DNA from: Deltaproteobacteria bacterium
GTDB taxonomy: Bacteria; Desulfobacterota; Dissulfuribacteria; Dissulfuribacterales; DYLC01
Length of the DNA stretch: 64,000 nt
Direction of reading: 5' to 3'
Assembly (NCBI GenBank): GCA_028695735.1
Contig: JAQVIJ010000002.1
Coordinates: forward strand, 333,852 to 397,851
The notes under the pieces were generated by a model. The model was not told where the DNA came from. It saw nothing but the letters and a program-made list of their open reading frames with translations, and did not search any database. Made by a program: the position numbers and the translations under genes. This document shows, piece by piece, positions 3,545 to 45,051 of this stretch (within the stretch, counting starts at the first letter, position 1; every line of letters begins with the position of its first letter).

Positions 3545-3613
3545 GGAGCCTTGAAAGATTAGAATCTTCGTCCGAAAACAAGGGGCGATAAAAGGCGAAA
3601 AAATGGGCGGCTC
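3545..3613. repeat. Dispersed palindromic element, copy A
   Basis: Begins GGAGCCTTGAAAGATTAG and ends GGCTC, an imperfect inverted end. Bases 3555-3568 form the palindrome AAGATT-AG-AATCTT. The element at 25408-25482 has the same left end and a palindrome with a compensating base-pair change (G-C here, A-T there). The interior contains GGGGCGATAAAAGGCGAAA, resembling the interior of that copy. It sits between glnA and yedF and its right end merges with the terminator hairpin. The inverted pair GGTTCCCC/GGGGAGCC at about 3531-3550 also overlaps its left end. Confidence 0.55.
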
Positions 3614-3635
3614 TTATGCCGCCCTTTTTATTTTT
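3605..3635 (+). terminator. Rho-independent terminator after glnA
   Basis: Perfect 7-bp stem GGGCGGC (3605-3611) / GCCGCCC (3618-3624), a 6-base loop, then a run of T starting at 3625. It lies 90 bases after the glnA stop and 50 bases before yedF, so it separates the two transcription units. Confidence 0.88.
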
Positions 3636-3683
3636 ATGGCCTGCGTTATAATTGACTGCATAAAAATCTATTTGGAGGGGCAT

Positions 3684-4271
3684 ATGAAAAGACTGGATTG
3701 CAGGGGGCTTGCCTGTCCTAAGCCCGTTTTGGAGACCAAGGCCTTCATCGAGGCCAATCCATCGGAGATATTCGAGGTGTGGGTGGATAATCCCGTCTCC
3801 TCTCAGAATGTGACTCGTTTTTTGGCCAGTCAGCATTGGTCGAGCACTGTAAAGGAAGAGCCTGGCCTTTTCATCATCACTGCTGCTCCGCCCACCTGTG
3901 AGCTGGCCTTTAGTTCAGAAAAGCCGTCTTCTGATGAGCGCATTTTGGTCTTTATTCCCACTGATTGCCTGGGCAGCGGGGATGATGAATTGGGCAAAAG
4001 ACTGCTCAAAAGCCTGATCTCTACCCTAAAGGAGATGGGTAACGCCCTCTGGCGCATCGTATTGGTAAATGGAGGTGTGCATTTGACGGTAAACGGGTCG
4101 GCCTGTCTGGAGGACCTGAAGGCATTGGAGGCATCAGGGGTCAGTATTCTGGTCTGTGGCACCTGTCTTCAGCATTTTGGGCTGGTGGAGCAAAAACAGG
4201 TGGGTGAGACCACCAACATGTTGGACATAGTTACCTCTCTTCAAATGGCATCGAAGGTTATAAGGGTCTAA
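3684..4271 (+). CDS. yedF: Sulfurtransferase-like selenium metabolism protein YedF
   Basis: Two-domain protein of 195 residues. The N-terminal TusA-like domain (about residues 1-70) starts MKRLDCRGLACPKPVLE, with the conserved CPxP turn that carries the sulfur- or selenium-relay cysteine. The C-terminal DsrE-like domain (about residues 85-195) contains ILVFIPTDCLGSGDDELG and ILVCGTCLQHFGL. This fusion is the YedF family found mainly in genomes with selenium metabolism; its biochemical role is not firmly established. The open frame extends upstream, but the chosen ATG has GGAGGGG at proper spacing and starts the TusA domain exactly. Its TAA abuts the ATG of recD2, so the two genes are surely co-transcribed. 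Confidence 0.9.
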   Translation: MKRLDCRGLACPKPVLETKAFIEANPSEIFEVWVDNPVSSQNVTRFLASQHWSSTVKEEPGLFIITAAPPTCELAFSSEKPSSDERILVFIPTDCLGSGDDELGKRLLKSLISTLKEMGNALWRIVLVNGGVHLTVNGSACLEDLKALEASGVSILVCGTCLQHFGLVEQKQVGETTNMLDIVTSLQMASKVIRV

Positions 4272-6584
4272 ATGCCTGAAAACAAAGAACAGATTAGGCT
4301 CAAGGGCAGGGTGGAGCGTGTTACCTATGCCTCTTCTGAAAATGGTTTTGCGGTCCTGCGCATAAAACCACAGCGGGGTACCCCCTTTGTGGCCACAGGG
4401 CATCTTCCAGAGCTCACTCAGGGTCTGAATCCTGATGGGCTGGAGCTGGAGTTTCTGGGTGATTGGTGCATGACCAAATACGGCAGGCAGTTTGCATTTT
4501 CCGCTGCTGCCATAATGGGCAGTGAGATGCTCTTTTTTTTGTCCAAGGTGGTAAAGGGCCTTGGTACGAAACTGGCCGGAGAATTACTACATACCTATGG
4601 AGAAGAGGGTCTTACAAGGCTTTTAGACGCCAATCCAGAGGCATTGCTGAAACACAAGGGCATCAAAGAAAAGAGGCTTGGCCTCATAAAGCGTTCCTGG
4701 CAGAAACACAGAAACCTCAAGAACCTGACGGAGTATCTGGCGGCTCACAATGCCCAGGTCTCGCCGCAGCTCATCATCCGCATCTATAATCACTTTGAGG
4801 ACGAGGCCTTAACTGTGCTGAAGGCCAATCCCTATCGGCTCACAGAGGTCAGGGGCATTGGGTTTAAGACAGCGGATAAACTGGCCATTAGCCTGGGTAT
4901 TCAGCCCGATTCACCCTTTCGCATCAAGGCCGCAGCGGAGCACCTGCTTTTGAATGCCGCAGAGACCAATGGTCATACCTGGCTGTCTGTAAATGAGTTG
5001 GTGGAGTTACTGAAGGAGCTCTTGTCCGGCGACAATGCCCGAATTTCCACTGCTGACATTTTAAATCTGCTGGGACAGATGGCCCTGGAGGGCACAGTGG
5101 TGCTGTGGGAAGAGAAGATAGGGATGGCATCCTATAAGTTCATGGAGGATTGGATCAGGCAATTTTTTGTGGACAAGGCCGGAAATATGGATAGAAAGCG
5201 GCTGTCACTCTCCAGCATTGAGGAGTTTATTCGCAGATACGAGTTGGAGACGGGTTTTGAGTTGGCGGAGGAACAAAAGGACATCATTAGGCTCATAGGA
5301 GGCGGGGATGGCCTGGTCTTTGGCCTGGCGGGCTATGCAGGCACTGGAAAGACCACTGTCTGCCGTTCGGTTTTGCATCTTTTATCAGCAAGTTATGTCC
5401 CGCAAAAGGATATCGTCTGCTGCGCCTTTACCGGTATGGCTGCCTCCCGGCTCAAGAAGGCCACTGGCTACGACGCCTTTACCATTCATAGCCTTCTTAA
5501 ATACAAAAGCGATAACACCTTCGAGTATGGCCCTGACAACCCCCTTCCGCACAGAGTGATACTTCTGGACGAGGCATCCATGGTGAGCCTTAATCTGTTC
5601 TTTTATTTAGCCCGTGCATTAAGACCTGATGCCATGCTGATCTTAGTGGGGGATCCAGCCCAGCTTCCGCCCATAGGCGCAGGTAATGTGTTTTCAGACG
5701 CCATTTCCCAGGGCCTGATTCCAGCAGTGCACCTGACCCGCATCTTTCGGCAGAGTGAAGACAGCGTCATCACACTGTTTGCCAACGAGATTCGCAAGGG
5801 CGAATGGCCTGAGGGCATTGAAAAGCCGGGCTGGCGTGACCTGGTCTTTGAGGAGGTTCAGCCCTATAACCTCTTTGCCTTGAAAAAAGGCAAGACAGAG
5901 GCGGAGCTCAAGGAGCTGCGTGAGGCCAATAACCAGGCCATATTTGAGCGGATTCAGGCCATTGCCCTTGAATATAAGGCAAAACTGGAGCACCCTGTCT
6001 GGGAGTTTCAGGTGTTGACCCCCATGAAGATAGGCCAACTGGGCACAGAGGCCTTAAATTCCGCCTTACAGGAGATACTCAATCCCCAAGGCCAGAAAAG
6101 GACCATAAATCGTCATGGCATTGCCTTGAGAGAGGGGGATAAGGTGGTGCATCTGCAAAATAAGGACATGGAGGTCATGGCCTGGGAGGATTACATCGCC
6201 AGGGGCAGACAGTTCGAGGCAATGGAGATGAAGCGCATCTTCAATGGCAATTTAGGGTTGGTGGCTGGAGTGGATGCAGAGGAGGAGCGCATATATGTGG
6301 TCTATCCCGAGCGGGTGGTGGTGGCCTATGACGCAGACCACTTGGGGGATATCCTGGAGTTGGCCTATGCCCTGACTGTGCACAAGGCCCAGGGCAGCCA
6401 GTATCGCATTGTGGTAATTCCCCTCTCCAATTCCCATTTTATTATGCTCAACAACAAATGGTTCTATACTGCCATTACGCGAGCGGAGGAGAAGGTCTAT
6501 CTCATCGGCCAGAAATATGCCCTTCAACGGGGATGCAAGAATATCGAAAGCGTGAAGCGTCAGACATGGTTGAGTATGCAATGA
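4272..6584 (+). CDS. recD2: ATP-dependent DNA helicase RecD2
   Basis: Superfamily 1B 5'-3' helicase of the RecD2 (YrrC) type, which acts without RecBC. The 770 residues begin with an OB-like region (LKGRVERVTYASSENGFAVLRIKP) and helix-hairpin-helix repeats (about residues 90-210, including YRLTEVRGIGFKTADKLA), which distinguish RecD2 from RecD. The motor domain carries Walker A GYAGTGKTT near residue 355, the Walker B region LLDEASMV near 433, LVGDPAQLPPIGAGNVF, and the C-terminal motif LTVHKAQGSQY near 703. RecD2 is linked to replication-fork and mismatch repair in other bacteria. The gene follows yedF with no gap; there is no known functional link between the two. Confidence 0.93.
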   Translation: MPENKEQIRLKGRVERVTYASSENGFAVLRIKPQRGTPFVATGHLPELTQGLNPDGLELEFLGDWCMTKYGRQFAFSAAAIMGSEMLFFLSKVVKGLGTKLAGELLHTYGEEGLTRLLDANPEALLKHKGIKEKRLGLIKRSWQKHRNLKNLTEYLAAHNAQVSPQLIIRIYNHFEDEALTVLKANPYRLTEVRGIGFKTADKLAISLGIQPDSPFRIKAAAEHLLLNAAETNGHTWLSVNELVELLKELLSGDNARISTADILNLLGQMALEGTVVLWEEKIGMASYKFMEDWIRQFFVDKAGNMDRKRLSLSSIEEFIRRYELETGFELAEEQKDIIRLIGGGDGLVFGLAGYAGTGKTTVCRSVLHLLSASYVPQKDIVCCAFTGMAASRLKKATGYDAFTIHSLLKYKSDNTFEYGPDNPLPHRVILLDEASMVSLNLFFYLARALRPDAMLILVGDPAQLPPIGAGNVFSDAISQGLIPAVHLTRIFRQSEDSVITLFANEIRKGEWPEGIEKPGWRDLVFEEVQPYNLFALKKGKTEAELKELREANNQAIFERIQAIALEYKAKLEHPVWEFQVLTPMKIGQLGTEALNSALQEILNPQGQKRTINRHGIALREGDKVVHLQNKDMEVMAWEDYIARGRQFEAMEMKRIFNGNLGLVAGVDAEEERIYVVYPERVVVAYDADHLGDILELAYALTVHKAQGSQYRIVVIPLSNSHFIMLNNKWFYTAITRAEEKVYLIGQKYALQRGCKNIESVKRQTWLSMQ

Positions 6585-6637: not shown

Positions 6638-7747
6638 ATGAACGGTAAATGGACTGGATTTGTGTGTGCGGCGTTATGCCTCCTGTCCGGCTGGCAGGCC
6701 GAGTCTGTTTCTGCTGCTGAACCCAAGGCCGTGAATACCGGCAGCCTTTATGAACGCGTCTGTAAGGCTGTGGTGAATGTGACAAGTACTGTGATTTCCA
6801 AGCCCTATGCCATGGCAACGGCGTCGGTCAAGGGCAATACATCAGGGTTTGTCATAGACAAAATGGGGCATGTGGTGACCAGCGCCTCTGGTTTAAGCGA
6901 TCTGCGTTCCATAGAGGTGGGTTTTGTGGATGGCCAGCGGTGGCCTGCAAAGCTTTTGGGCGTGGATGATGAGACGGACCTGGCGATTCTTGAGATTTTA
7001 GCGCCTAACAGCAACAAGGAGACCTTCGGGGCCCTTTCCCTGGCCGCCACATCTGATCTGGCGCCTGGTCAGACCGTGCTGACCTTCGGCAATCCAGACG
7101 GCATAGCCTGTGAGGTGTCGCGAGGGATACTCATGTCGCCGGTCAAGAGTGTGGCGAAACCGGATGGAACGGTGCTGGACCTGGTGCTCCGCACGGACGC
7201 TGCCGTCTCATATTTCAACATGGGAGGCCCGCTGGTGGACACCAATGGCCGTGTGCTGGGCATCATTTCTCCGGCCTTCATGCCCGCCGGTCAGCCGTCC
7301 ATCACCGGTTTTGCCGTTTCTTCCGAGGTGATTCAAAACCTTACATCACAGCTGGTTTCTCGCGGATATATAAGGCGTCCGTGGTTGGGAGCCACACTGA
7401 TCTCCATCACCCCTTCTTTGGCAAAGGCATTGAATCTGCCCGGTGAGATAGGGGCTATGGTCACCGACATAACGCCTAACGGCCCTGCAGCAAAGGCTGG
7501 AATCAAGGCAAGTGATCGGGAGCTGCGCATCGGGAATACTGTTTATCGTGTTGGTGGCGATATTATTATCGCTGTAGATAAGACCACCATTCGTTCTGAT
7601 AAGGCCTTTTTGCGTTTTTTGCAGGGGAAAGAACCCGGAGACACCATAGAGCTGACGGTCTATCGGGACAAAAAGCTCTCGACAGTCAAGGTGAAACTGG
7701 GCGACAAGGCCGAGCTGACGGGCCAGGGACACAAGGGGAAAAAGTGA
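6638..7747 (+). CDS. HtrA/DegP-like protein with PDZ domain, predicted inactive protease
   Basis: Exported protein of 369 residues: signal peptide (about 1-27, ending VSAA), a trypsin-like fold of the HtrA type (about 35-235) and one PDZ domain (about 245-355; RPWLGATLISITPSLAKAL ... VTDITPNGPAAKAGIK). Aligned by eye to HtrA, the His motif TNNHVV reads TSASGL (Ser84 replaces His), the Asp motif TDLAIL is kept (Asp114), and the Ser motif GNSGGPL reads FNMGGPL (Met195 replaces Ser). Two of three catalytic residues are therefore missing, pointing to a peptide-binding or regulatory role in the envelope, not proteolysis. AAGGAG precedes the ATG. The reading frame is intact and the surrounding fold motifs are kept, so this is not a decayed gene. 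Confidence 0.85.
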   Translation: MNGKWTGFVCAALCLLSGWQAESVSAAEPKAVNTGSLYERVCKAVVNVTSTVISKPYAMATASVKGNTSGFVIDKMGHVVTSASGLSDLRSIEVGFVDGQRWPAKLLGVDDETDLAILEILAPNSNKETFGALSLAATSDLAPGQTVLTFGNPDGIACEVSRGILMSPVKSVAKPDGTVLDLVLRTDAAVSYFNMGGPLVDTNGRVLGIISPAFMPAGQPSITGFAVSSEVIQNLTSQLVSRGYIRRPWLGATLISITPSLAKALNLPGEIGAMVTDITPNGPAAKAGIKASDRELRIGNTVYRVGGDIIIAVDKTTIRSDKAFLRFLQGKEPGDTIELTVYRDKKLSTVKVKLGDKAELTGQGHKGKK

Positions 7748-44232: not shown

Positions 44233-45051
44233 ATGATAATCAACATAAAAGAAGCAATTATTTTGGGTATAGTAGAGGGGCTAACTGAATTTCTTCCCGT
44301 ATCCTCAACTGGTCATCTCATTCTGACATCACATCTCTTGGGCTTAAATGCCGATGACGGCAAGACAGGATTGGACGCCTTTGAGATTGTGATTCAGTCA
44401 GGGGCGCTTTTGGCCGTATTTTCCATCTATCTACATTATATTCAGCGCATATGGAATGGTGTTTTAGGCAGGGATTCAGAGGGATTAAAACTCCTTCAGC
44501 AGCTTTTGATTGCCGTAATGCCTGCACTGATTATGGGCTATTGCCTTGGCCATTGGATAAAAGAGAGGCTTTTTGGCATAAATCCAGTGCTCTTTGCCCT
44601 GGTTGCAGGCGGTATTTTAATGATAGTCGTAGAATACATCAGGAAAAACAGAAAGGCATGGGTGCCTTTGACTCTGGAGGATATGGACATCAAAAACGCC
44701 TTGATCATAGGGTGCGCTCAATGTCTTGCCCTCTGGCCTGGCACAAGCCGTTCCATGATTACCATGGTGGCAGCCATGTTGTTGGGTTTTTCTCCAAAGG
44801 CTGCAGCGGAATTCAGTTTTTTGTTGGCCCTTCCCACTCTGGGGGCCGCCACCCTCTACGACCTCTACAAACATGGCGGTGATATTCTGCAGGTAAGCGG
44901 CGTAAGTGGCCTCTTGACAGGTGTGCTGGTGTCATGGATTGTGGCATGGGTGGCTGTCAAGGCATTTTTACTATACCTGACAAGGCACGGAATGTTTATC
45001 TTTGGAGTCTATCGTATCATTCTTGCCATTGCAATCAGTTTGGCAATTTGA
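44233..45051 (+). CDS. uppP: Undecaprenyl-diphosphatase
   Basis: Membrane enzyme of 272 residues that recycles undecaprenyl pyrophosphate for cell-wall synthesis; overproduction gives bacitracin resistance. Both family motifs are present: EGLTEFLPVSSTGHL near residue 15 (catalytic Glu region) and LWPGTSRSMIT near 172. About seven to eight hydrophobic helices span the length. The last eight codons and the stop lie inside the first 39-bp repeat of the array described separately, so the repeat overlaps a normal-looking gene end; product length matches the family, meaning the gene is intact. Confidence 0.95.
   Translation: MIINIKEAIILGIVEGLTEFLPVSSTGHLILTSHLLGLNADDGKTGLDAFEIVIQSGALLAVFSIYLHYIQRIWNGVLGRDSEGLKLLQQLLIAVMPALIMGYCLGHWIKERLFGINPVLFALVAGGILMIVVEYIRKNRKAWVPLTLEDMDIKNALIIGCAQCLALWPGTSRSMITMVAAMLLGFSPKAAAEFSFLLALPTLGAATLYDLYKHGGDILQVSGVSGLLTGVLVSWIVAWVAVKAFLLYLTRHGMFIFGVYRIILAIAISLAI

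Follow-up and report, generated by a model that had tools for sequence, protein, structure and literature searches.

HtrA pseudoproteases are already known: according to the accessible part of the paper describing them (PMC4794232), MamO and the inactive copies of MamE arose repeatedly in magnetotactic bacteria, by duplication within magnetosome islands, and MamO has a degenerate triad with a residue other than Gly at position 193. The protein discussed here, P0001, shares these two traits of MamO; in its order, however, one orthologue decays in several lineages, and it is linked or fused to UppP. As for UppP, or BacA, the membrane-bound phosphatase that acts on undecaprenyl diphosphate, the accessible part of the E. 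coli crystal-structure paper locates its termini, including the C-terminus, in the periplasm and mentions no partner HtrA domain for it (PMC5852022). Literature searches for a link of UppP/BacA with HtrA or PDZ, whose coverage did not extend to subscription papers and preprints, returned nothing relevant.

P0001 is encoded at 6638..7747 on the + strand of the window (the whole stretch of 64,000 nucleotides that was analysed), as indicated by its open reading frame, Pfam, phmmer and a structural model. The source genome (G000; 2.22 Mb, 97% complete) belongs to an order that we take to be the Dissulfuribacterales, that of Dissulfurimicrobium; NCBI places Dissulfurimicrobium in Deltaproteobacteria incertae sedis. 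The gene starts with ATG, has a clear Shine-Dalgarno sequence (AAGGAG) 7 nt before it, and its frame is intact over 369 residues, in agreement with the original prediction. By eye, the N-terminus of the product resembles a signal peptide; it is followed by a trypsin-like domain at residues ∼36-240 (Trypsin_2, 2e-22) and a PDZ domain at residues ∼247-358 (PDZ_2, 4e-16), the succession of domains that makes up the HtrA/Deg fold.

The AlphaFold2 model, built from 27 alignment rows (pLDDT 82.6, pTM 0.77), matched Deg1 (Z 33.0, rmsd 4.1, 320 residues), and both AlgW and DegS with Z 31.5; taken together, these three proteins share the fold of both domains with P0001 over residues 28-364 (Z 31-33, rmsd 2.5-4.1, 26-29% identity). 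P0001 also keeps their W-L-G before the PDZ domain, presumably a counterpart of the carboxylate-binding loop, but the triad His and Ser and the oxyanion Gly are replaced. Among the NCBIfam models, the best by E-value was the Do family TIGR02037 (DegP/DegQ, 2.6e-54), whose curated cut-off of 416.2 was not reached with 184.8 bits; the same held for the DegS equivalog TIGR02038 (132 bits, cut-off 422.95), and the MamO model gave 71 bits against a score of 800. Unlike DegP/DegQ, P0001 has one PDZ domain and a dead site, besides falling below the TIGR02037 cut-off. It is best explained as an exported, folded HtrA with a DegS-like layout, i.e., one protease domain and one PDZ domain.

Regarding the active site, the triad columns were set by phmmer alignment to the solved DegP and Deg1, and the family alignments concur. 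The catalytic His is replaced by Ser84 (codon 6887..6889, + strand) and the nucleophile Ser by Met195 (7220..7222, +), with the residue numbers originally given; the Asp is retained as Asp114 (6977..6979, +), as is the PDZ domain. Two further lesions went beyond that description: in the family alignment the oxyanion-hole Gly, conserved at column 193 in 63/63 active orthologues, is Phe193 (7214..7216, +), and the NPGNSGG loop has become SYFNMGG. Where an active HtrA/Deg enzyme has the triad and the oxyanion Gly, P0001 therefore presents S84, D114, M195 and F193. A substitute triad, the condition named at the outset as fatal to the interpretation, was looked for and ruled out: P0001 has only two His, at residues 78 and 365, the former also common in active orthologues and the latter in the low-confidence tail of the model, so that such a triad is implausible. 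Judging from these residues, P0001 would lack protease activity.

The order-level sample comprised 46 genomes of the class or order, with the orthologue in 43 of them, in some only as pieces. The count of 39 full-length rows and the tree leave out the fragments L005, L045 and L048-L052, and hence G017 (two pieces), G014, G039 and G003; L053 duplicates L034. The left-out pieces read H, D, N in G014 and SG- / --N in G039 and G003. The HDS triad was kept in 10 of the 39 rows and absent in 29, 23 of which have none of the three residues left; the orthologue from the same family as the window (G001) is among the dead ones, with TTE. In other orders of the phylum, 65 matches were found in 64 genomes, and HDS occurred in 63 of the 64 that were aligned (the one from G189 was left out), the exception being a second copy in G305, with YDC. 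Orthologues with an intact triad, proposed beforehand as the mark of a sequencing error, do exist both in and outside the order; however, 29 of 39 are dead, G001 of the window's family among them, so that such an error is excluded.

The loss is specific to the P0001 orthologue, since the DegP paralogues kept HDS in 37/37 genomes examined. G000 itself has two other HtrA-like proteins with intact triads, L002, which was aligned, and L003, whose translation was read by eye; searching the genome contigs with P0001 gave one distant HtrA, L033, also intact, and in the plasmid collection all relatives of P0001 were below 60% identity. With the triad columns removed before tree building, the HtrA proteins of the order and the G305 copy formed one clade (SH-aLRT 99) with dead and intact members intermixed, and a single clade of all 30 dead rows was rejected (AU test, p 0.0066): the triad was lost repeatedly within the order. 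The number of losses, 4 changes by unordered parsimony or 8 if irreversible, is unsure because the tree was of a quick kind and many of its end branches are long, several being flagged. The order thus offers graded intermediates (HDS, NDS, HDA, QDA, GDE, SDM, SGD) on the way from enzyme to pseudoenzyme, with a binding domain that is still constrained.

As for the genomic context, the htrA orthologue directly follows a uppP gene (PF02673) of the same orientation in 36 of the 43 genomes of the order, at a distance of 48-929 nt between the matches; in G019 the ends of two contigs share sequence and show a fusion, which brings the linked genomes to 37/43. Fusions of UppP and HtrA occur in four genomes of the order: G005, G013 and G007, with both domains in a single open frame of 608-620 aa, and G019; a fifth is the YDC copy of G305, in another order. 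These in-frame fusions are found at L129:8564-10405, L135:6059-7861, L130:9381-11144, L149 (G013) and L147/L148 (G019), and their UppP part carries the full PF02673; a periplasmic C-terminus of BacA suits a periplasmic HtrA fused C-terminally. The G305 fusion falls inside the HtrA clade of the order, and transfer between orders is possible. In the genome with the widest gap, G022, a 285-aa protein of the alpha-alpha toroid prenyltransferase type (PF00432, L122:10508-11365) lies between uppP and the pseudo-HtrA (NDS).

The linkage also accompanies intact triads. Within the order, each of the 10 orthologues with an intact triad is linked to uppP; outside it, five genomes of family f28 have uppP adjoining HtrA, and the four of these that were aligned have kept the triad. 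Thus the linkage may predate triad loss, and partnering with UppP alone does not explain the loss. Outside the order, adjacency was found in at least 6/64 genomes (the five of f28 and G305), where the flank covered at the other aligned loci was only 0.5-1.5 kb. Within the order, three genomes of one genus (G027, G029, G039) have the linked type of UppP in an unlinked position. Searches of G028 (94% complete) gave no HtrA orthologue and no uppP, which fits one missing locus carrying both. A GH3-family (NagZ-like) gene is near 9 of 18 loci of the order, one member having been checked by Pfam, and is again a cell-wall context.

The HtrA distances track those of UppP when DegP is allowed for (partial rho 0.52, Mantel 0 of 2000, 32 genomes, G000 and G001 being left out by choice on account of their replaced UppP), a correlation that the shared location itself may raise. 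In addition, phylogenetic confounding is possible, because the linked cases, except f28, all belong to one clade.

It is fairly likely that in this order the orthologue is a functional partner of UppP. The overall reading, to which a probability of about 0.5 is assigned, is that the P0001 orthologue serves UppP in the periplasm as a partner that has a PDZ domain but no proteolytic function, and that P0001 itself has been orphaned. The orthologue would have become a periplasmic partner of UppP/BacA, its PDZ domain recognizing C-terminal peptides from proteins of the envelope or cell wall and thereby tethering or modulating UppP where the carrier lipid is released; with binding as the selected function, the triad could have decayed repeatedly. 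Physical contact with UppP, the PDZ ligands and the regulation are thus all proposed features. More tentatively, the dead PDZ protease may be a dedicated regulatory or tethering subunit of the undecaprenyl-diphosphatase, a fused domain in some genomes, that couples carrier-lipid recycling to envelope peptide signals, with catalysis lost several times independently after the partnership had formed. To our knowledge, the regulation of UppP and its coupling to the cell-wall machinery are little understood, and the recurrent linkage or fusion of UppP to a dead HtrA provides a direct way into both. The original prediction of a dead-site HtrA with fold and PDZ domain intact, kept as a non-catalytic scaffold, agrees with this reading; its role as a sensor or decoy in envelope stress gained no support, the genomic evidence pointing instead to the recycling of undecaprenyl diphosphate. 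The link to UppP could not be seen from the window because it is broken in G000.

A different role would be to assist an active DegP-like HtrA as its chaperone, adaptor or activator, in the way that MamO activates MamE (PMC4794232), with the linkage to UppP a positional accident. The two intact HtrA paralogues of G000 and the universal HDS of DegP among the 37 genomes speak for such a role, but five in-frame fusions with UppP and a linkage of 37/43 fit poorly with an accident, and the HtrA distances follow those of UppP more closely than those of DegP, for which the partial rho given UppP was 0.14 in the same number of genomes (32); this role is judged unlikely. Even less probable is that the protease domain was repurposed for metal binding, as in MamO: His is common in the dead members at columns 78 (25/29) and 90 (21/29), but His78 and His90 also occur in active members of the order, and P0001 has Arg at 90 and two His overall. 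A MamO-type metal site was ruled out for P0001, which lacks the di-His of that protein.

The conservation of the dead orthologues was compared with that of the active ones (29 dead versus 63 active from outside the order). From active to dead, the conservation rank fell from 1 to 283 at column 84, from 26 to 264 at column 195, and from 16 to 149 at column 114; conservation dropped in the protease domain (ratio 0.77) and was undiminished in the PDZ domain (1.10). Whole-protein dN/dS in dead genera ranged from 0.05 to 0.18 in the usable pairs, with medians of 0.116 in g10 (5 usable of 36 pairs), 0.116 in g15 (1/1) and 0.084 in g22 (1/3). Pairs with dS >2 or <0.02 were dropped, among them the sole g19 pair and, in the whole-protein comparison, 31/36 in g10; active groups had 0.05-0.09 outside the order, and 0.14 (g3) and 0.22 (g9) within it. 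The protease domain was looser than the PDZ domain in g10 (0.183 vs 0.117) and g15 (0.125 vs 0.099), the opposite of active groups outside the order, where it was tighter (e.g., 0.036 vs 0.077). Hence, an intact frame under purifying selection, as expected of a pseudoprotease, was found in related genera, where these measurements were made, the set including a single genome from the genus of the window. P0001 is very probably a folded, inactive pseudoprotease maintained by selection.

These data bear on whether P0001 is a decaying pseudogene or the product of a sequencing or assembly error. HtrA does evolve faster than UppP, with a median ratio of 2.2 in dead pairs and 1.5 in intact ones, and the G017 copy is in two pieces; however, full-length rows in 39 genomes, the low dN/dS of the usable dead pairs, the undiminished conservation of the PDZ domain and the likewise dead orthologue of the same family make this hardly credible, and both error and pseudogene were ruled out by orthologues, dN/dS and conservation. 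Finally, that the protease is still active through a non-canonical site is the least credible option, for although Asp114 and several Ser/Thr remain, there is no available His, the oxyanion Gly is Phe and the NPGNSGG loop is destroyed.

Returning to the partnership with UppP, the linkage is broken in the window's own locus. The gene directly upstream of P0001 is the recD2 helicase gene (4272..6584, +), with P0001 beginning 53 bases past its stop; the order of genes is recD2-htrA in G000 and recD2-uppP-htrA in Dissulfurimicrobium hydrothermale (G006). The sole UppP found in G000 (uppP/bacA, 44233..45051, +) is 36.5 kb from the pseudoprotease and belongs to a different subfamily, with 32% identity to the HtrA-linked UppP of G006. 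Both genomes of family f1, G000 and G001, have one UppP match each, unlinked; the two are 58% identical to each other and ∼30% identical to the HtrA-linked type. The simplest reading is that f1 lost the linked uppP, acquired an unlinked one in its place and kept the pseudoprotease; therefore, it is for P0001 itself that partnering with UppP is least certain. Following this replacement of the native UppP, P0001 would persist as an independent binding protein, with either the new UppP (in trans) or other ligands of its PDZ domain as its target; that it still acts on UppP is rather doubtful. The protein encoded ahead of recD2, at 3603-4271 of the window, starts like SirA and ends like DsrE; it presumably resembles YedF of selenium metabolism.
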